Source: a virus
IMG/VR virus record: IMGVR_UViG_3300005613_003012
Span: 1-24,734 of that record
Strand: one strand, 5' to 3'
Length of the DNA stretch: 24,734 bases
Position 1 is the first letter of the stretch, and the number at the start of each line of letters is the position of its first letter. Below, piece by piece: positions 590 through 24,170 of this stretch. The notes beneath the pieces were generated by a model that was not told the origin of the DNA, ran no database searches, and saw nothing but the letters and a program-made list of their open reading frames with translations. Position numbers and translations under genes: made by a program.

Positions 590-837
590 AATTCTTTCCT
601 GTCATCATTTTCTCGCTTTTAATCGCCACACCGGCAAAAGCACAGGTCTGGGGTCGGTATTATGCCAACCCCATTTTTAATTTGATGGAAAATTATGTAG
701 TTGAAGAGATTGTGCAACAACGCAATCTCATACGTCGCAACTACGACTCAACAACATACGAAAACTATCAGATCTGTCAGGTCATCTCAGCTATCGGAGG
801 AGGGTCCGGCGAAACTTGCCAGGCTTTGCTCTATTGA
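586..837 (+). CDS. Predicted secreted small protein, 83 aa
   Basis: The product has a textbook signal peptide: MKFF, a hydrophobic core PVIIFSLLIATP, then a likely signal peptidase I site AKA|Q after residue 19. The mature part, about 64 residues, has many Tyr and Asn residues and two Cys near the end (ICQ and ETCQ), which could form a disulfide in the periplasm. Start and preceding stop overlap as ATGA. An exported protein in an early-looking phage cluster could act on the envelope, for example superinfection exclusion, but no family is recognised. Its TGA stop forms part of the -35 box of the next promoter. Confidence 0.65.
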   Translation: MKFFPVIIFSLLIATPAKAQVWGRYYANPIFNLMENYVVEEIVQQRNLIRRNYDSTTYENYQICQVISAIGGGSGETCQALLY

Positions 838-862
838 CAACCTTTGGCCGATCGCATACAAT
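834..862 (+). promoter_or_regulatory. Sigma-70 type promoter P1
   Basis: TTGACA (834-839), a 17-base spacer and TACAAT (857-862): a perfect -35, a -10 one base off consensus, and optimal spacing. It sits between two genes, with the -35 overlapping the TGA stop of the upstream gene. The start codon at 906 lies 43 bases below the -10, leaving a leader of roughly 35 bases with no clear Shine-Dalgarno sequence. The hexamers and spacing are the same as in P2 at 3587-3615. Confidence 0.8.
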
Positions 863-3586: not shown

Positions 3587-3615
3587 TTGACAGCAGTTGA
3601 ACTGTGAGCTACAAT
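3587..3615 (+). promoter_or_regulatory. Sigma-70 type promoter P2 with dyad in spacer
   Basis: TTGACA (3587-3592), 17-base spacer, TACAAT (3610-3615): same boxes and spacing as P1. The spacer contains an 11-base dyad, CAGTT-G-AACTG (3594-3604), well placed for a repressor or activator. It lies directly upstream of the operon carrying the RavA/ViaA-like genes; the first start codon (3657) is 41 bases below the -10. Confidence 0.8.
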
Positions 3616-3656
3616 CTACTGTGTGCTCAACAGCACTTAATACAACCCACAAGAAC

Positions 3657-4073
3657 ATGAAACTGAACCAACTGATCAAACAAGCGCGTGAGTCGGCTCT
3701 ACTCTGGGACGACTGCGACAAAGCCCTTAACGAAGTCAACGACGCTTTCGGCGCATCTTATGAAGCGGCTCGAGACAAACTAAACAGCTCCCTGACGGTG
3801 GCTGATCAAAACGGTTTTGAAATGTCTCAGCTTCAAGGCGACGACTCAGCCTTTCGATTTCCAGATCTCGGAACCTTAGTCGTTGTTCGCGTTAGTAAAC
3901 TGCCAACACCTCACAAATCTCTTGAGACTATAGAGATGAAAATCGAACGACTTGAGCGTGAACTTAAGTTGGCTAAAACCGAGCGTAAGCATTTAATCGA
4001 AAGACTAAAGATTAATGCTCACGAATTTGTCACCGAAAAAGTAACTACAGCTTTCAAGAGGATCACCAAATGA
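3657..4073 (+). CDS. Unknown coiled-coil protein, 138 aa
   Basis: ATG 3657 is chosen over an in-frame ATG at 3597, because 3597 lies inside promoter P2. The N-terminal half (residues 1-85) mixes helices with a short strand segment (TLVVVRVSKL). Residues 89-120 form a clear heptad-like coiled coil (ETIEMKIERLERELKLAKTE...). It is the first gene of the P2 operon and overlaps the next by an ATGA. Co-transcription with the AAA+ ATPase and VWA genes suggests it belongs to that system, perhaps as an assembly or substrate factor. No family recognised. Confidence 0.7.
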   Translation: MKLNQLIKQARESALLWDDCDKALNEVNDAFGASYEAARDKLNSSLTVADQNGFEMSQLQGDDSAFRFPDLGTLVVVRVSKLPTPHKSLETIEMKIERLERELKLAKTERKHLIERLKINAHEFVTEKVTTAFKRITK

Positions 4074-5275
4074 CTCAACCCGAAGTTTTCATTCTTCATT
4101 GCTCTGTGTCTGCTTCAGTCAGACAGAGTATTCAGATTGCTTTCGAAGATTACAAACTACCTGAGGATGTAATCGATACGCTAAAGAAAGCTAACTCAAT
4201 CTCCATTCGTCCTAATTTATCTAGCGCTCTTAAAGGATGCCTAGATGAACTGAGGCTAATGCAACGTTATCTTTACGATCGTTGCACCATACATCACGGG
4301 GACATTCATTTCTTGCATCCTGACTATTTTCACGATGCAATGGAGCGAATAGAAGAGATTAAAAACCACGCTGTTACTTGTAACTCCAAACTCAAGCAGG
4401 AGTGGCGTCAAGAGTTCGACAAATGGAACTCGATGATTGACAACGTCTTCAGCCCTTTGTTCCCAGATAAGAATCAACTTGCTTTAGTTCGGGAAGCTTA
4501 TCTAAAGATGTTTCCGACAGCAGCAGAATTTGCAGCACCGATTAGTGTTCATGTTGTAGGTCCTTATCCTGCTTCTTTAGAGCGCGTAGAAGACCCTTCG
4601 GAAATCTCAGATTTCATAAAGAATGCAGCAGCGATTAACACTGAAGAAGTTCTAGAGGCTGCGCGGCACGGTGCTCTCGATGCCAGCATGGGTAAGATTG
4701 CAGAGTTGTTAGATGATCTAGATGCTAGATCTGCTAACAAGGTGGGAGAACGTGTCCTTAGTAACAACCCTAAGAAGCGTGGTAGTTGGCAAATTGCGGC
4801 ATCTGATCTAATCCTCTCAGCTACACATAACCCCGCTCTTAAACCGATAAGTAATCTTGTTGAAGAACTTATCAAAACTGGTGAACGTATGCGGGACGAA
4901 CCTAAAGGTCCAGCAAGAATCCAAGCCTTCAAACGTTATTCAGATTTGCGTGACGAGATTCGTGAGGAGGCTAAGCTCATCACCACAGCAAAGGACAGCT
5001 CGAAGGGATTTGAAGCTCTTCAAATGTCTCTGAGTCTTTCAAATAAGTATCAAGATCTTCTACAAAATGTAAGCACATGCGATTCCCTGGATGAACTTGA
5101 GCAACTTGAATCTGAGATTGAAACACAAACAAGTGTTTACAAACACAGAGCTAAACATCTTCAACAAGTGTTTGCTAAAGCTAAAGAAACAATGGTTGCT
5201 CGCGCCAACCTTTCAGCAGTTGCTGAAGAGCTTGCAACGAAAGAAATTAAATCAGAAGGTGATTGCGACTTCTGA
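4070..5275 (+). CDS. Unknown 401-aa helical protein of the RavA/ViaA-like operon
   Basis: This large, mostly helical, acidic protein starts MTQPEVFILH and is coupled to the previous gene by ATGA. No enzyme motif is visible. Residues 120-180 hold a Trp- and Phe-rich segment, and the C-terminal third (about 320-390) has long amphipathic helices with Leu/Glu repeats. Its place directly upstream of a MoxR ATPase and a VWA protein recalls phage and plasmid operons in which a protein of the DUF3150 type accompanies that pair; I offer this family only as a candidate. The helical build would suit a substrate adaptor or structural subunit of the ATPase complex. Confidence 0.75.
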   Translation: MTQPEVFILHCSVSASVRQSIQIAFEDYKLPEDVIDTLKKANSISIRPNLSSALKGCLDELRLMQRYLYDRCTIHHGDIHFLHPDYFHDAMERIEEIKNHAVTCNSKLKQEWRQEFDKWNSMIDNVFSPLFPDKNQLALVREAYLKMFPTAAEFAAPISVHVVGPYPASLERVEDPSEISDFIKNAAAINTEEVLEAARHGALDASMGKIAELLDDLDARSANKVGERVLSNNPKKRGSWQIAASDLILSATHNPALKPISNLVEELIKTGERMRDEPKGPARIQAFKRYSDLRDEIREEAKLITTAKDSSKGFEALQMSLSLSNKYQDLLQNVSTCDSLDELEQLESEIETQTSVYKHRAKHLQQVFAKAKETMVARANLSAVAEELATKEIKSEGDCDF

Positions 5276-5282
5276 GTATTTT

Positions 5283-5334
5283 GTTGATTATTACGATTCT
5301 TTTTAACCGTTGATTATTACGATTCTTTTTAACC
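5283..5334 (+). repeat. Exact 26-bp tandem duplication before the RavA-like start
   Basis: Two identical 26-base units (5283-5308 and 5309-5334), each starting GTTGATTATTACG and ending TTTTTAACC, sit head to tail. The second copy ends exactly where the ATG (5335) of the AAA+ gene begins. Together with seven other bases they make up the whole intergenic gap. There is no Shine-Dalgarno sequence in the unit. It looks like a slippage duplication that is either recent or selected. Confidence 0.95.
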
Positions 5335-6537
5335 ATGGACAACCAACTCTCAATCATGAACCACGAACTCTTCGCTAACTTTCAAAACTTTCGAGCAAGC
5401 ATCAACTCTGCTTTTCTTGAGCGGTCTGATGTAATCGATGGCGTTCTTGCATCGATGCTTACGAAACAGAATTGTTTTCTGTTCGGAGCACCAGGCACAG
5501 GTAAGTCCGAACTTGTACGAGCTGCTGCAAATGGTTTCAGCGGTTCTAAATTCTTTAACTATTTGTTATCTCCCACGACTGATCCTTCTGAACTCTACGG
5601 CCCAGTTGCCGTCTCTAAACTTCTGGAAGATGAGTACACACGAGACGTTAAAGGTTATTTGCCTGACGCAAACGTAGCTTTCTTGGATGAATTGTTTCGT
5701 GGTAGTTCTGCGGTACTTAACTCACTTCTTCAACTGCTTAACGAACGCACGTTTAATAATGGTCGGGATCTTATCAAAACTGATATTCAATCTATTGTCG
5801 CTGCAACTAACAGCTTCCCTACTGAAGAATCCTTGCAAGCTTTTTGCGATCGATTCCTATTCCGACCAACTGTGGAAGGTTTGAAAAAACCTACAAGCAA
5901 ACGAAAGCTTTACGGCTGGGTTATTAACAACGATCGTCCTGCTGTAAAAAGCGAGCTGACGATTGACAATCTTACTGAGCTACAAAAAATTACTACAAAC
6001 GTAGAAGTTAGCGATAACTTTCTCGATGTATTTAGCGAGACGATGGACATTCTTGAGTCTCGTGGTCTAAGTATTTCTGATCGTCGTCGCGTTCAAATCC
6101 TTAAATTTCTTAGAGGTTGGGCTGTTGTTCAGGGCGAAGATACTGTACACCCAGAGTATCTCCACTCAACACTACATCACATTGTTTACCAAACACCTGA
6201 AGATATTACGACGATCAAAGAAGTTGTAGATCAGTGTGTGCCCACAGCGGAGAAGTTCTTCCGTTCAGTACAGAAGGCTTCGAACGGAGTAATGAGTGAG
6301 TTTAATTCGTATCGATCTAAACACATGGATTCTCTCTCAGATGTAAACGCTCATGTAGCGAAGCTTAAAGAGCTGCATAATGATATGAGAGCTATTGCTG
6401 AAAGAGCAGAACGTGCTCTAGATGATGGAAACATGAAGCTGACAGCAGCAATGCGACTAAAAGCAACTAAAGTTTGCCAAGAAGTGAATCATAATCTTGA
6501 TCAAATTTCTGAAAACATTTCTCGTTATTCCAAATGA
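5335..6537 (+). CDS. RavA-like MoxR-family AAA+ ATPase, 400 aa
   Basis: MoxR AAA+ proteins are hexameric ATPases that remodel or activate partner proteins, usually with a VWA-domain partner. Visible motifs: Walker A GAPGTGKS (51-58), Walker B VAFLDE (114-119), sensor 1 AATNS (156-160), and a following DRF (172-174) suited to the arginine-finger region. The stretch PSELYGPVAV (84-93), KGYLPDANVAFLDEL and LNSLLQLLNERTFNNG (128-143) matches the RavA branch better than CobS or magnesium-chelatase I types. The C-terminal 200 residues are helical, with a coiled coil at about 330-395. ATG 5335 directly follows a tandem repeat; an ATG at 5356 is an alternative start. The stop overlaps the VWA gene start (ATGA). 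Confidence 0.9.
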   Translation: MDNQLSIMNHELFANFQNFRASINSAFLERSDVIDGVLASMLTKQNCFLFGAPGTGKSELVRAAANGFSGSKFFNYLLSPTTDPSELYGPVAVSKLLEDEYTRDVKGYLPDANVAFLDELFRGSSAVLNSLLQLLNERTFNNGRDLIKTDIQSIVAATNSFPTEESLQAFCDRFLFRPTVEGLKKPTSKRKLYGWVINNDRPAVKSELTIDNLTELQKITTNVEVSDNFLDVFSETMDILESRGLSISDRRRVQILKFLRGWAVVQGEDTVHPEYLHSTLHHIVYQTPEDITTIKEVVDQCVPTAEKFFRSVQKASNGVMSEFNSYRSKHMDSLSDVNAHVAKLKELHNDMRAIAERAERALDDGNMKLTAAMRLKATKVCQEVNHNLDQISENISRYSK

Positions 6538-8075
6538 ATACCACGACTGAAATTATCCGCCTAGCAGAATCGGAGCCTTTAGTTCTAACTGTCTCAGCAC
6601 TGACTGACTTTCTGTGGCCTGAGTTTGTTAGAGAGACAAAACCTCAAGTTCAATACTTGAGCGACAGGTTTGACATTCGTCAACTCAGTCGATTCGGTAA
6701 GGAAGTATTTGAGTTTCTGTATACCGGCGGAGACGTAACACCAATCGTATCGTTCGATGACATTGAACAATACTTTCGACAAAAGCAGGACGGTCAAAGT
6801 CCGCAGATGCCGAAAGGTTACAAACCAGAAAACGGATTATGGAACATGGTGTTAGACGATATTGTCAATAGCCCTGTGTACCATCAACTTAATACACTGT
6901 GTCTGGGTAGTCACTTTAACTCAGGTAACAATGCTGTTTGTATCCTTAACGAACTCAGCTCTGTCATGGAACAAATGCTTGAGACTAATCAAGCTGTACT
7001 AAGCGCATTAACTAGCAAGGCGCAACAACTCACAGACATTCGATCCAAGTTTGTTAAGGCTATGAAGTCTGGGGACACACAGACAGCAGCAGAGTTGCGT
7101 CAACAAGGAAAAGAACTCGGCGAGGAAATTGAGAATGCCTTAAGAAATGTGCATCAGGAGTACAAGCCGGAGATCGACAAGTCAATTGAAAAAGCCAAAG
7201 AAGAAGCTTCAAACATCGAAGAAGCTATGAGTGCTTTGGCTGGTGATAATAAAGGGATCGGAGTCAAACTAACCAACATTCGAGAAAAGAATGAACTAGC
7301 TCGTAAACTTAAAAACAATAAACGACTCTTAGCTTTTGCTCGGAGATTAGGTGCTTTGAAAAAAGCATGGTCACAACGTAAACGAGCTAAAAAGCATTCG
7401 TCTTCTTACAGCGACATTGTTGGCGCGGTCATGTCTGATCAAGTAACCAAAGCATTTCCCTCAGAGATCGCTTTAGCTGCCACAGCGTCGGGTCGTGCAT
7501 TGTTTGCACTCAAATACTCAGAACGTACACTATTAACAAAAGATTACGAAGCAAAGACCAAAGAGTTGGCTCGGGGACCTGTGGTGATGTATATCGATAT
7601 CTCAGGTTCTATGTCGGGTGAATCTGAGTTGTGGTCGAAAGCAATTGCTTACGTTATCGCAGAAGAGTGTGCTAAAGACAACCGCGAACTGCAAGTGCAT
7701 TTATTTGATACCAGCATTGACAAAAGCATAACTATTAAACCAGGTTGCTCTGACTTCTCTGATTTACTCAGATTTATCTTGGAGTGGTTTACCCACGGTG
7801 GGACTTCTTTTGATCAGGTTATGAAACACGCTTACGCCCGTGCTGACATAAACCCTAAAGCCGATGTACTTTTAATTACAGACGGTGAATGCGAAGTAAC
7901 AGATGCTGCGGTGCGTAAATTCAATATGTTTAAGAACGAACAAAGCTTAGACGTTCATGCGTTCTGTATCGGTAAAAAAGCTATGTCACTCAAGAAATTC
8001 TGTGACGATGTTCAACTTATCGACACGTCAGAAGATGCTGACTCATCGGAACTATTCCAAAAGGCAATCGCCTGA
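6534..8075 (+). CDS. ViaA-like VWA-domain protein, 513 aa
   Basis: This is the likely partner of the AAA+ ATPase, to which it is coupled by ATGA. The C-terminal third is a von Willebrand A domain starting RGPVVMYIDISGSM; the metal-ion site is complete: D355-x-S357-x-S359, T424 in GGTSF, and D450 in LLITDGE. The N-terminal part (1-140) is a mixed domain, and residues 140-290 form a long, charged, probably coiled helical stalk. Size and order (N-terminal helices, C-terminal VWA) resemble E. coli ViaA (about 480 residues). In E. coli, RavA-ViaA acts as a chaperone-like membrane- and respiration-linked complex; here the target is unknown. CobT- or CbbO-like roles are less likely alternatives. Confidence 0.9.
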   Translation: MNTTTEIIRLAESEPLVLTVSALTDFLWPEFVRETKPQVQYLSDRFDIRQLSRFGKEVFEFLYTGGDVTPIVSFDDIEQYFRQKQDGQSPQMPKGYKPENGLWNMVLDDIVNSPVYHQLNTLCLGSHFNSGNNAVCILNELSSVMEQMLETNQAVLSALTSKAQQLTDIRSKFVKAMKSGDTQTAAELRQQGKELGEEIENALRNVHQEYKPEIDKSIEKAKEEASNIEEAMSALAGDNKGIGVKLTNIREKNELARKLKNNKRLLAFARRLGALKKAWSQRKRAKKHSSSYSDIVGAVMSDQVTKAFPSEIALAATASGRALFALKYSERTLLTKDYEAKTKELARGPVVMYIDISGSMSGESELWSKAIAYVIAEECAKDNRELQVHLFDTSIDKSITIKPGCSDFSDLLRFILEWFTHGGTSFDQVMKHAYARADINPKADVLLITDGECEVTDAAVRKFNMFKNEQSLDVHAFCIGKKAMSLKKFCDDVQLIDTSEDADSSELFQKAIA

Positions 8076-8089
8076 CTTTGTATTAATTT

Positions 8090-8112
8090 GTAGGTGTCTC
8101 AACGACACCTAC
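8090..8112 (+). promoter_or_regulatory. Perfect 9-bp hairpin abutting a start codon
   Basis: GTAGGTGTC (8090-8098), loop TCAAC, GACACCTAC (8104-8112) are exact reverse complements, and the next three bases are the ATG of the following gene. There is no T run after it, so it is not a standard intrinsic terminator. The only purine-rich candidate ribosome-binding site (AGGTG, 8092-8096) is inside the 5' arm, so folding should lower initiation or protect the upstream mRNA end. Confidence 0.8.
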
Positions 8113-8499
8113 ATGCCAACACTTAAACAGGACATAGAAATTATCAGAGGGATAAGCGATAAATACAAAACAACCGAAGTAAAACTAGAGTTGAAACATT
8201 GGCTAGCTTCGTGCTTTACACACAAACAAACAAATATAAATAGACAAACACACTATAAACATTTAGTTATTACATTCATAGCACTCGAAGGTAGAGACTT
8301 TATTAATGTGTCAGTTTTTGATACAAACAATAATCAGTATTTTGATGATAGGTCGATTTTGCTCAAGCCCTATATATTAAAAAATTTTGGAGTAGAGTCA
8401 TTCGATAAACTTCACCAGAGCACTAAGTGCACTGTGTGCGATGTATGGCAGATGGTGGAAGAAGTTGAAGTCGAGATATTGGATTGTTTAGGCTGTTGA
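8113..8499 (+). CDS. Unknown protein, 128 aa, behind a hairpin
   Basis: ATG 8113 is preferred; the frame is open back to 7957 but there it only shadows the VWA gene. The product starts MPTLKQDIEIIRG and has a central beta-rich segment (HLVITFIAL, INVSVFDTNN). The C-terminal part has four Cys (TKCTVCDVW and LDCLGC), which could bind a metal ion. The gene is more AT-rich than its neighbours (runs of ACAAACAAACAAAT), hinting at separate acquisition. It closes the RavA/ViaA-like operon; its TGA lies in the -35 box of P3. No family recognised. Confidence 0.65.
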   Translation: MPTLKQDIEIIRGISDKYKTTEVKLELKHWLASCFTHKQTNINRQTHYKHLVITFIALEGRDFINVSVFDTNNNQYFDDRSILLKPYILKNFGVESFDKLHQSTKCTVCDVWQMVEEVEVEILDCLGC

Positions 8500-15557: not shown

Positions 15558-16091
15558 ATGGATTTCTACCGAGTCCCGAACAATATCTTCAATCCTATTT
15601 CCGATCGAGGGTTATGCGACGGTCGGATAGTACTTCCTATCGACGCTAAAGGTGAGCTAAAAGATCAATTAGAAAGTGCTGGATATACAGACATAATAAG
15701 AGCAAACGATACTTGCGATCATTTAGATATAAAATGGTGGAAAGCGCTGCCTGAGTTTGACTGGACAATCGCTATAACGCAGGGTTTAAAAAACAACCTC
15801 GAATGGATCTTAGAGCCTGGTTACGAGCTGGCTAACAAAGGTCTCATAGTTTTAGATCGAATAACTTTCTTAGAGCCCACGAGGGCTCGTTCAGACTTCT
15901 TAAAATCAAAACCTTTATCAAATATGATTGTTTTAAATCCTAGACCTGAGTTTCGTGCGGACCAGAGAAAATCAAAAGACTCTGTGACTTCTGCGTGGTT
16001 TGTGTACGACAAAACCAAAAATCAGACTATCGGGACAAACATTTATTTCGATGTAAGCTGGCAGCGACCAAAATCTTTTTTTAAAAAATGA
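15558..16091 (+). CDS. Methyltransferase-like protein lacking the catalytic motif, 177 aa
   Basis: The layout follows N6-adenine DNA methyltransferase-like phage proteins: a motif I position at VLPIDAKGEL (25-34), then LPEFDWTI (64-71), then LANKGLIVLDRITFLEPTRAR (91-111), IVLNPRPEF and SVTSAWFVYD. Active enzymes carry N-P-P-Y/F right after a segment like FDWTI; here the bases encode A-I-T-Q-G (72-76). Motif I also lacks the usual G-x-G. The protein is thus probably not an active methyltransferase and may be a DNA- or protein-binding derivative. Its ATG 15558 lies 38 bases above and divergent from nblA; the stop overlaps the next gene's start by four bases. Confidence 0.68.
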   Translation: MDFYRVPNNIFNPISDRGLCDGRIVLPIDAKGELKDQLESAGYTDIIRANDTCDHLDIKWWKALPEFDWTIAITQGLKNNLEWILEPGYELANKGLIVLDRITFLEPTRARSDFLKSKPLSNMIVLNPRPEFRADQRKSKDSVTSAWFVYDKTKNQTIGTNIYFDVSWQRPKSFFKK

Positions 16092-16411
16092 GAGGCCGCC
16101 TGCAGTTGTTGCTCACGCAGTACGTAGACGCGCAGCAACAAACAAACAGAATGCTTGAAAAGATAGCAGCTCTCATGGTCAGCAACCAATTACTGCAGGA
16201 GTGTATAGACCACGAGGGTAAACCACGGTTGCCAGATGAAATAGCTGAGCTTGTCGCGGACTCATTTTCGGCTGGTCTGTGTCTTTTAAACGAGCTTGAA
16301 CAACGAAACAAAGATTTTGATTATCAAAAACGAGAGTTTTTTATAGAGGATACTGAGAGTGATGACGATCAAGACGAAGATGACAATAAACAAAGCTTGG
16401 GATCGTTCTAA
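16088..16411 (+). CDS. Unknown helical protein with acidic tail, 107 aa
   Basis: The product is helical throughout residues 1-75 (QLLLTQYVDAQQQTNRMLEKI and a Leu/Ala-rich second helix) and ends in a strongly acidic tail (IEDTESDDDQDEDDNK, 86-101). The start overlaps the preceding stop by four bases, so the two are coupled. Acidic tails of this sort can mimic nucleic acid or contact basic proteins. It could bind the neighbouring nuclease or primase, which is speculation. No family recognised. Confidence 0.65.
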   Translation: MRGRLQLLLTQYVDAQQQTNRMLEKIAALMVSNQLLQECIDHEGKPRLPDEIAELVADSFSAGLCLLNELEQRNKDFDYQKREFFIEDTESDDDQDEDDNKQSLGSF

Positions 16412-16435: not shown

Positions 16436-17221
16436 TTGGACACCAGAAAAACTATAAATGGTTTAAGGCATTACAGGTGTCCTGGAGTGCCTGATTACTT
16501 GCCGTCAGTAACTTCAATTCTTAGCGCAACGCAATCAGCTAAAACTCAACAGAAACTAGCGCACTGGAACATAATGAATCCAGGAGCAGCAGATGCGGCT
16601 GCTGAAAGAGGAACATGGATACATAACAGTGTTGAAAATCATTTAAGAGGATTGAAAGTAGTACCTCCAGAAAGGTACGCACCATACTGGGAAGGTGTGC
16701 CGGAGTGCGTTGATTCTCTTTTAGACGGTGGTCGAGTGCTTTGGTCGGAAAGGCCATTCAACCAACCACGTTGGTCTAGATACGTAGGGGAAGACGGTGT
16801 GGGTCGTATTTTTTATTATGATCCTGACTCTAAACATGGATACGCAGGCTGTTGTGATCTCATTTACATGGACAACAACGCCGAAATAATCCTTGCAGAT
16901 TTCAAGACAAGTTCGGGTCCATACAGTGCGAGATTTCCTAATAAAAATTCAAACATAGACGAAAAAACAAAGAAAGCTCTTATCTCTGGAGTATTTAAAA
17001 CTAAGAAAACTCGATTACAATTAGCTGCTTATAAGCTCGCTGCCGAAGCATGTTTGGGAATTAAAATTAACAAAACCCAAATTATTGTGAGTACTGCTAT
17101 TAAGGAGTACCAAACACAAGTATTCACGTTTGGGGAAACTGAGGTAGAAAAAGACGAGATTGCGTGGCTGCAGCTTGTCGATAAATTCTTTACCGAGGTG
17201 CGTCCAGCACAAGCCGCTTGA
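16436..17221 (+). CDS. RecB/Cas4-type PD-(D/E)XK nuclease, 261 aa
   Basis: This fits phage-type RecB-like exonucleases. Catalytic positions are visible: H63 in RGTWIH, D141 in GYAGCCDLI, D155-F-K157 in ADFKTS, and Q195-x-x-x-Y199 in LQLAAYKLA, the order expected for the family (H, D, D/E-x-K, Q-x-x-x-Y). The N-terminal LPSVTSILSAT is also typical. A TTG at 16436 is the only start codon between the upstream stop and these motifs. There are no four-Cys iron-sulfur positions, unlike Cas4 or AddB. It likely degrades or processes DNA ends in recombination or host DNA breakdown, beside the primase-helicase. Confidence 0.87.
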   Translation: MDTRKTINGLRHYRCPGVPDYLPSVTSILSATQSAKTQQKLAHWNIMNPGAADAAAERGTWIHNSVENHLRGLKVVPPERYAPYWEGVPECVDSLLDGGRVLWSERPFNQPRWSRYVGEDGVGRIFYYDPDSKHGYAGCCDLIYMDNNAEIILADFKTSSGPYSARFPNKNSNIDEKTKKALISGVFKTKKTRLQLAAYKLAAEACLGIKINKTQIIVSTAIKEYQTQVFTFGETEVEKDEIAWLQLVDKFFTEVRPAQAA

Positions 17222-22928: not shown

Positions 22929-24170
22929 TTACCACTTAACAGCCAGCACTGACCATCCGGATCCTTTGCCTTCGACCATCCACCGAGGGCCAAGGTTCTT
23001 TTTGGAGTATTGGACGTATTTGCCGTTGGAATTGACGTATCCGCCTCCGACGACGTCCATCTCGCCCCACGGGTCGTGAATCCAAAGGTTCTTACCATCG
23101 GCGCTAATGCCGACGCAAAGCACCCAGTGACCGCCTCCGGATGGCGAGCTAACTGGGCCGTGGTGAAGGACACCCAAGGGAACAGGAACACCAGCCCGAA
23201 GCAACTCCTCGACGGTATTCCAATCAGCATTCTGACGAAACTCAGCCTCAATACCGTAACGCTCCAGTGCTGACAACTGAACCCAGGATTCTGTAGTGTC
23301 TCCGATTGAAAAAACCGTTTCAACATATTCGTCATCATTATCTATTGCATTCGGTTTTAAGGCCGAAAGCAACATAGCACACGTACTACTAAAGCACGTA
23401 CGATCCGCATCTCTGTAATTATCTCTTTGAGAATAGTAAGGAACAGATAGTTTTATCTCAGAAGACTTAGCATAAGTAACTGCCTCAGTAGGAACATCGT
23501 TAATAATCTTCCAGTGCTCTGAAAAGATAAACCAAGACTCATTGGGTTTAGCAAGGAGTCTTACTTCCTGGTGTTTACTGCCAGCAAACATTGTTATAGA
23601 AGACCACTCCCAAGCACTTCCCTTAGGGACAAAAACTTTTTCTTCAGGTTTTAGTAAAGAGGAGTCCGCAGCTCTCCGCTTAAGCCACGTGTCTCGCTTG
23701 GCGAGGATTGATTGGCCCAAAAGAGGATGTTTAATCTTGGTCAAGAATAACTTGCACTCTTCTTCTCGTCTACGCACAAGGCCGGGAATTGTTTCATTAT
23801 CACCACCTTTTACCCACCTCTTAAACTCTTGCGAAACAATCTTACGATCAGCTTTTTCGTTTAATAACTTTAATAAAGTTGAGTTAATAAAAGCAGTAGT
23901 TCCTACGTTAAAAGTAAAGCTTACAAGAGCATCGTATTCATTCTGATTAATCTTTACCGAAACAAAACTATTTACACATTGTTCAAAAGATTCAATATCT
24001 TTCCAAAGCAACTGTTCTGCTTTTTCTTCCGATATTTTTAGACCCGAATAAACATCACTACCTGTGTGGCCGTAACCTATTGTCCACACTCCGGCGGGAC
24101 AAAGATAGGCAGTAAGCCTTAATCCTTCAAATTTTTTAATTAAATCAAGACCAGTTTTTGATAGTTTCAC
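22929..24170 (-). CDS. Two-domain endolysin: GH24 lysozyme plus C39-like peptidase, 413 aa
   Basis: It degrades cell-wall peptidoglycan to release phage. Residues 1-145 are a T4/P21-type lysozyme: KKFEGLRLTAY with catalytic E15, then C24 and T30 in CPAGVWTIGYGHTG, the phage form of E-8-C/D-5-T. A central segment (150-235; AWEWSSITMFAG, WFIFSEHW) may be a small binding domain. Residues 240-413 match papain-like C39_2 peptidases: Q248, C259 in RTCFSSTCAM, H348 in GGGHWVLCVG and D366 in WIHDPWGE. C39 domains cleave peptide bonds, so the protein may cut both sugar and peptide links. No signal peptide is present, so a holin is needed; I did not see one. Confidence 0.9.
   Translation of the reverse strand: MKLSKTGLDLIKKFEGLRLTAYLCPAGVWTIGYGHTGSDVYSGLKISEEKAEQLLWKDIESFEQCVNSFVSVKINQNEYDALVSFTFNVGTTAFINSTLLKLLNEKADRKIVSQEFKRWVKGGDNETIPGLVRRREEECKLFLTKIKHPLLGQSILAKRDTWLKRRAADSSLLKPEEKVFVPKGSAWEWSSITMFAGSKHQEVRLLAKPNESWFIFSEHWKIINDVPTEAVTYAKSSEIKLSVPYYSQRDNYRDADRTCFSSTCAMLLSALKPNAIDNDDEYVETVFSIGDTTESWVQLSALERYGIEAEFRQNADWNTVEELLRAGVPVPLGVLHHGPVSSPSGGGHWVLCVGISADGKNLWIHDPWGEMDVVGGGYVNSNGKYVQYSKKNLGPRWMVEGKGSGWSVLAVKW

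Follow-up and report, generated by a model that had tools for sequence, protein, structure and literature searches.

A conserved four-gene MoxR-VWA cassette of uncultured tailed phages, with a third component of predicted DUF3150-like fold

The window that we analysed, the whole 24,734-nucleotide stretch of the IMG/VR record IMGVR_UViG_3300005613_003012, carries four co-directional genes encoding a small protein (P138), a larger one (P401), a MoxR AAA+ ATPase and a VWA protein (Table 1). A preliminary description of this DNA had placed a near-consensus promoter ahead of the four genes, and it is indeed there: TTGACA-N17-TACAAT occurs twice in the window against 0.08 matches expected, and in 19 of 40 non-redundant relatives a TTGACA with a 17-bp spacer precedes P138 by 36-92 bp. 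The ATGA joints reported earlier are present at two junctions (4070-4073 and 6534-6537) but not at the third, where P401 and the MoxR gene are separated by 59 bp containing a near-perfect 26-bp tandem duplication. The hairpin downstream of the VWA gene, which is found identically in the close relative L043 and is missing from some other relatives, possibly marks the end of the cassette transcript, although it is not followed by a T-run.

Table 1. Positions of the cassette genes and associated features in the window
Feature	Position	Strand	Description	Basis
Sigma70-type promoter	3587-3615	+	TTGACA-N17-TACAAT	exact match
P138	3657-4073	+	138 aa, ATG start; predicted long antiparallel helical hairpin (H3-51, H87-119)	AF2
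P401	4070-5275	+	401 aa	
C-terminal Asp-Phe codons of P401	5267-5272	+	encode the invariant terminal residues	P401 tail comparison
MoxR ATPase	5335-6537 (start possibly 5356)	+	400 aa; MoxR-clade AAA+ (bpMoxR/AAA_5 + AAA_lid_8)	PF20030, PDB RavA, motifs
VWA protein	6534-8075	+	513 aa; helical N-terminal region, C-terminal VWA domain	VWA_2, 2.3e-7
MIDAS of VWA protein	DxSxS 7596-7610; T 7803-7805; D 7881-7883	+	complete	motif
Hairpin	8090-8112	+	perfect 9-bp stem, between VWA stop and next start	sequence and folding

As for the ATPase, its top Pfam match is PF20030 (bpMoxR, 4.6e-54), and AAA_lid_8 is also recognized (4.6e-6). The complete Walker A, Walker B and sensor 1 that had been read from this one sequence hold across 38 relatives, in which GAPGTGKS, FLDE and ATN, together with a DRF arginine and an SDRR motif, are invariant or nearly so. 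The protein thus shows the marks of the MoxR clade, i.e., Walker A and B, sensor 1, arginine finger, sensor 2 and an adjacent VWA gene. Its true start may be the downstream one listed in Table 1, because in many relatives the protein begins with the Met found here at position 8. The VWA partner exhibits a MIDAS formed by D355-x-S357-x-S359, T424 and D450, all invariant in 38 relatives, which substantiates the earlier claim of a complete metal site. A MIDAS typically binds an acidic residue of the target, and in NorQ-NorD the target requires the MIDAS residues whereas ring binding does not (PMC9976466).

The pair had been described as RavA/ViaA-like. Like RavA-ViaA of Escherichia and Salmonella it combines a MoxR ATPase with a VWA protein, and RavA is the closest solved sequence relative of the ATPase (PDB, 5e-38). 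However, the match covers the AAA+ module only, ending at residue 302 of RavA's roughly 498 with the LARA region absent from the alignment, and both proteins fall far below the equivalog cut-offs (126.8 bits against 681 for RavA model NF010054; 45.6 bits against 500 for ViaA model NF008230). In trees, the phage MoxR/VWA clade is separate from Salmonella RavA/ViaA with full support, while its placement relative to plasmid clades was not confident. Together with the two additional partners, this does not support assigning the pair to the RavA/ViaA family.

The gene order P138-P401-MoxR-VWA is complete in 74/78, 70/78 and 60/79 loci in three independently seeded IMG/VR surveys, and incomplete loci coincide with contig ends in every case but one. 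At this exception (L269/G012), the only locus with sufficient upstream DNA where P138 was not found, the MoxR-VWA pair is present without P401 and P138; the partners may therefore have been dispensable once, unless the assembly is broken there. The four genes are a single conserved unit of a widespread uncultured tailed-phage lineage. The synteny on which the preliminary description depended is thus upheld, and so is its core, namely that the phage encodes a MoxR AAA+ ATPase and a VWA protein together with two partners dedicated to them. A peptide-pattern scan of GTDB contigs found no P401 in 84,980 bacterial species genomes.

The two partners had both been called unknown. For P138, the AF2 model has a mean pLDDT of 93.6 and a pTM of 0.57, and we found no confident family and no fold match in the PDB. 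One member out of 42 matched a GapR-like DNA-binding domain (PF10073), with E=0.006, and the GapR structure in the PDB was matched at E=0.097; these matches are weak, coiled-coil bias is likely, and we base no claim on them. Matches to the repeat protein Tako8 are sums of 2-3-bit repeats and are meaningless.

For P401, by contrast with that description, a fold relative can be named. There was no confident sequence match in Pfam, PHROG or the PDB, the DUF3150 Pfam model (PF11348) matches nowhere in the window at E<=10, and a PDB fold search gave nothing at E<0.05. The best Foldseek match of its AF2 model (pLDDT 85, pTM 0.75) is nonetheless a phage DUF3150 protein (E=1.2e-7, probability 1.00, TM 0.44/0.57). 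Aligned by hhalign with a profile of six plasmid DUF3150 sequences, P401 shares 209 colinear columns (P=0.005, probability 7%), with a score of 30.2 that none of 60 column shuffles reached (15.9 +/- 2.8); a single DUF3150 sequence gave no significance. As modelled, P401 is a diverged DUF3150-fold protein, its sequence relation being weak and the TM-score about 0.5. Mean column identity over 40 P401 sequences is 56%, and the C terminus is constant: Phe ends all 89 unique C-termini (Asp-Phe in 87) and all 79 distinct 12-residue tails. The last residue of P138, MoxR, VWA and PolA is, as a rule, other than Phe. A LemA match (E=0.008, 4/40 members) was dismissed as coiled-coil noise, and profile comparison with DUF6744 (PF20529) gave P=0.24-0.34, shuffles scoring equally high. 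Three short motif likenesses between P401 and DUF6744 were noticed by eye.

On plasmids, in more than 1,100 records of which 970 are conjugative, DUF3150 proteins are encoded in modules that include MoxR and VWA genes, and these modules adjoin RecT/Bet, exonuclease, SSB or primase genes. The IncA plasmid pRA1 has AAA, Bet, exonuclease, DUF3150 and VWA; Marinobacter (pMAQU02), P. mandelii and Citrobacter (pRHBSTW-00678_2) plasmids have RecT, exonuclease, MoxR, DUF3150 and VWA; a Proteus module has exonuclease, MoxR, DUF3150 and VWA; and a Hydrogenophaga module has MoxR, SSB, DUF3150, VWA and toprim. They thus share with the cassette a MoxR AAA+ protein, a VWA protein, a third protein of the P401 fold and recombination or replication neighbours, and their third protein has an acidic or variable tail with a terminal Phe in 4/6. 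They differ in gene order (MoxR-DUF3150-VWA), in having no P138, in that P401 falls below the Pfam model, and, at least in pRA1, in the type of the pair, which matches CbbQ_C and CobT models.

In other MoxR-VWA modules, on plasmids and in the Moorella phage MTATph1, DUF6744 takes the place of DUF3150. Here the ATPase is closer to that of the window (bpMoxR), the VWA proteins can be aligned with the window VWA protein along its length, and the third gene (300-370 aa) occupies the same position, both Pseudanabaena DUF6744 proteins examined ending in Phe. However, P138 is absent and, as noted, the P401 match is not significant. dnaN lies directly upstream of two of these modules, and in phage CL131 it directly follows a MoxR-VWA pair, whereas around several of the actinobacterial DUF6744 modules the nearest 5 kb are free of replication genes. 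A peptide-pattern scan of GTDB contigs for DUF6744 returned nothing, its single-protein pattern being too narrow, since tblastn does find plasmid copies. Our literature search found no paper naming DUF3150 or DUF6744.

The genomic setting of the cassette is consistent with such neighbours. It lies near the start of a plus-strand block with the order dcd-cassette-g258-PolA-SSB-exonuclease-primase, in which the SSB gene is g215 and the exonuclease gene spans 16436-17221. The genes for terminase, portal and major capsid are on the minus strand. Among named phages, the freshwater Synechococcus phage S-EIVl is nearest in capsid, portal, terminase, primase and ThyX, with 69% identity in the major capsid protein, 43% in the portal and 54% in the terminase; from this virion kinship, the host of the lineage is likely cyanobacterial. 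S-EIVl differs in having none of the four cassette genes, and its SSB and PolA are different (only 22% identity for PolA). Since its virion genes are alike while cassette, polymerase and SSB are not shared, gene content ties the cassette to the replication block rather than to the virion block.

We propose, with a probability of roughly 0.5, that the cassette encodes a system that uses ATP to remodel replication/recombination complexes of the phage and in which P401 serves as adaptor. The four proteins would build one machine. By analogy with family biochemistry, MoxR would most likely be a hexameric ATPase ring and the VWA protein its partner gripping the substrate; P401 would be the dedicated third component bringing them to the target, and P138 a small coiled-coil accessory. 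A replication/recombination role is probable because P401 resembles DUF3150, a neighbour of recombination genes on plasmids. The likeliest target would be an SSB, annealing, exonuclease or polymerase assembly of the phage, which the machine would load, dismantle or remodel early in infection; we read this target from gene neighbourhood, and lying next to replication genes does not amount to contact. The acidic Asp-Phe terminus of P401 probably serves for docking, either as an SSB-tip-like peptide or by supplying the acidic ligand to the metal site of the VWA protein. More tentatively, and at the level of speculation, DUF3150, DUF6744 and P401 could be versions of one adaptor, forming with MoxR and VWA a general, undescribed ATP-driven remodelling system that mobile elements use to recombine their own DNA by single-strand annealing and to replicate it, with the acidic Phe tail as a mimic of the SSB tip. 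If so, a number of genes called "CobS/CobT" in phages and plasmids would not be cofactor genes. MoxR-VWA pairs are already known, yet their viral targets are almost unstudied; a constant four-gene phage set is now linked to plasmid modules, and a vague "chaperone" label becomes a testable claim on mobile-DNA recombination and replication.

Other targets have to be weighed. Dismantling of a host complex, be it one of defence, of replication or of transcription, is an unlikely alternative. The cassette promoter is of early type, conjugative plasmids and phages alike meet host defences, and bacterial MoxR-vWA ternary systems with a third, sensor component have been proposed to be conflict systems (PMC7159879); but none of the four proteins gave a convincing defence-family match, the near-universal presence of the cassette is unlike accessory anti-defence genes, and P401 is conserved.

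A role as chaperone in the folding or mounting of tail or head proteins, suggested by virus-encoded pairs elsewhere, is distinctly unlikely. In the archaeal virus ATV, p618 (MoxR) binds p892 (VWA) as well as virion proteins and was assigned a role in tail development (PMC4124505), and the window VWA protein weakly matches phrog_22583, which is 892 positions long. This pair and the MoxR-VWA pair of the archaeal virus SMV1 are remote, however, with 24% identity to the SMV1 ATPase, and are components of virions; we found neither P401 nor P138 beside the SMV1 pair. Phage MoxR-VWA pairs were also noted earlier in jumbo phages and Bacillus phage 0305phi8-36, and virion assembly was proposed for those of jumbo phage group 2.2 (PMC7824862); the vWA of the jumbo phages is fused to a metallopeptidase, and the passages concerned describe no third component. 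Virion targets, like the metalloenzyme and photosynthesis targets floated at the outset, are disfavoured by the place of the cassette within the early/replication block, whose strand is not that of capsid, portal and terminase; by S-EIVl, which has homologous virion genes without the cassette and led us to lower this reading; and by DUF3150/DUF6744 modules on virion-less plasmids, beside RecT/Bet, exonuclease, SSB and primase genes. The tails of the lineage and of the S-EIVl group may still differ.

Superinfection exclusion by a phage-borne relative of the ternary conflict systems is very improbable: the bpMoxR match and the grammar of MoxR, vWA and third protein fit, but the beta-propeller that marks those systems was not found in the VWA protein, nor were beta-propeller, effector, protease or toxin domains in any component, and we saw no hypervariable part in a strictly conserved cassette within the replication block. 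Least probable is an auxiliary metabolic helper of a metalloenzyme or of photosynthesis, in the manner of CobS/CobT, CbbQ/CbbO or NorQ/NorD, for despite the likely cyanobacterial host and the models matched by the related pRA1 pair, at E<=0.1 the window ATPase matches neither CbbQ_C nor Mg-chelatase and the window VWA protein does not match CobT, none of the identified genes adjoining the cassette is a cofactor or photosynthesis gene, and homologous modules reside on plasmids of non-phototrophs.

The four co-directional genes of the window, 24,734 bases of an IMG/VR virus record, follow a near-consensus promoter and form a real, coherent and syntenic cassette. Among MoxR-VWA modules it represents a new phage variant, which comprises a predicted DUF3150-fold adaptor (P401) and one lineage-specific coiled-coil protein (P138). 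That the genes travel together, which the preliminary description had proposed to check, was borne out by three separate IMG/VR surveys seeded with the VWA, P401 and MoxR profiles, in which the same order was kept in 60/79, 74/78 and 70/78 loci, respectively. All exceptions but one are loci whose DNA ends within or next to the cassette. The genuine exception (L269, on contig G012) keeps MoxR and VWA, but P401 was not found anywhere in its 45.8-kb record; loss, swap or an assembly break may explain the absence of P138/P401. This contig also keeps the replication block, and small unrelated ORFs occupy the expected P138/P401 place. A scan by peptide pattern did not find P401 in the genomes of 84,980 bacterial and archaeal species, so the cassette looks like the property of free phages.

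Features of the cassette and of other parts of the window
Feature	Position	Strand	Remark
Second promoter-like site	834-862		exact TTGACA-N17-TACAAT
Promoter	3587-3615		near-consensus
P138	3657-4073	+	first cassette gene
P401	4070-5275	+	second cassette gene
Tandem duplication	5285-5334		directly 5' of MoxR start
MoxR	5335-6537	+	third cassette gene
VWA	6534-8075	+	fourth cassette gene
Hairpin	8090-8112		perfect; separates VWA from next gene
g107	16088-16411		107 aa, upstream of exonuclease
Lysozyme fusion	22929-24170		papain-like C39/C70 peptidase domain

The promoter pattern exceeds chance in the window (2 matches vs. 0.08 expected), and TTGACA with a 17-bp spacer lies 5' of P138 in 19/40 non-redundant relatives. 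The second site matches the cassette promoter. Of three joints thought to be ATGA overlaps or nearly so, two are indeed such overlaps, while P401 and MoxR are separated by a 59-bp gap containing a near-perfect tandem duplication of ~26 bp (gttgattattacgattctttttaacc). The ORF listed from 7957 probably starts at 8113, past the hairpin.

MoxR matches bpMoxR (4.6e-54) and AAA_5 in Pfam, and RavA is its nearest solved relative, across the AAA+ module only. "RavA/ViaA-like" is not supported as a family name, because the window proteins score far below both equivalog cut-offs and, in maximum-likelihood trees, the phage proteins form one fully supported clade separate from Salmonella RavA/ViaA. The MIDAS residues of VWA are invariant. 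Family biochemistry suggests that the pair would be an ATP-driven remodeller; the analogues are NorQ-NorD, in which MIDAS is required for the target but dispensable for the ring (PMC9976466), and the interacting ATV proteins p618 and p892 (PMC4124505).

P401 has no confident match in any sequence library searched. Its AlphaFold2 model (40 sequences; pLDDT 85, pTM 0.75) finds its best viral structural match in a DUF3150 protein of a phage (E=1.2e-7, probability 1.00; TM 0.44 by query, 0.57 by target), and seven further phage proteins match at <1e-3. Its profile aligns colinearly with six plasmid DUF3150 proteins over 209 columns (P=0.005), scoring 5 standard deviations over column-shuffled controls. 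Since the Pfam DUF3150 model has no match in the window, P401 is, as modeled, a remote fold relative outside that family. Profile comparison found no statistical link to DUF6744. P138 is confidently predicted as a helical hairpin, for which known relatives were not found.

At least 1,107 plasmid records carry DUF3150. Plasmid pRA1 encodes, in order, an AAA ATPase (matching CbbQ_C), an unknown protein, Bet, a lambda-type exonuclease, DUF3150 and a VWA protein (matching CobT). On 5/5 further divergent plasmids, DUF3150 accompanies MoxR and VWA genes; the neighbours are RecT and exonuclease on three of them, exonuclease on another, and SSB with a toprim protein on the remaining one. DUF6744, a second third-component family, adjoins MoxR-VWA in Moorella phage MTATph1 and at 11/11 annotated plasmid loci examined, and dnaN lies directly upstream of two DUF6744 sets. 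At a twelfth, unannotated locus (L296, Subdoligranulum plasmid), neither a MoxR-like long ORF nor a MoxR-VWA pair was recognised within 5 kb; primase-like, SMC/SbcC-like and Rad52-like ORFs, labeled by eye, precede DUF6744. In Aphanizomenon phage CL131 (L278), an LPD29 protein, MoxR, VWA and dnaN are consecutive, which is another third-component variant.

P401 ends in Phe in 79/79 distinct C-terminal 12-mers, nearly always as Asp-Phe, while the preceding residues vary widely; P138, MoxR and VWA as a rule lack such an end. Phe also ends 4/6 DUF3150 proteins (DDDDDCFF in pRA1) and both Pseudanabaena DUF6744 proteins (LFDLGF/LFDIGF). These ends recall the SSB tip; the annotated SSB of Synechococcus phage S-EIVl ends TDEPF. 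Alternatively, Asp400 of P401 may be an acidic ligand for the VWA metal site. In the replication block, g107 has a very acidic tail that ends in Phe (DDQDEDDNKQSLGSF), as do 5/5 distinct homologous tails found, and its Phe would provide a second SSB-tip-like end.

The relative G003 is 86,390 bp long, and its 127-bp end repeat is what a circularly closed assembly should show. Its cassette (41.7-46.2 kb) heads a + strand block, to which PolA, an SSB-like protein, exonuclease and primase also belong; the - strand carries terminase, portal and capsid. The last three are homologous to those of S-EIVl, from a high arctic lake (54%, 43% and 69% identity, the last for the major capsid protein), and this kinship makes a cyanobacterial host likely for the window phage. 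S-EIVl was reportedly described as a new widespread lineage (Chenard 2015, cited in PMC6293099). In contrast to the virion genes, its PolA shares only 22% identity, and none of the four cassette genes is detectable in it. The cassette thus goes with the replication genes and not with the virion block. Its most likely job, with a probability of about 0.5, is remodelling phage replication/recombination complexes. Counter-defence or takeover ranks lower and is unlikely; a role in virion assembly is somewhat less probable still. The lysozyme-C39/C70 fusion of the window is kept in G003 (65%), with an S-EIVl match over ~190 residues.
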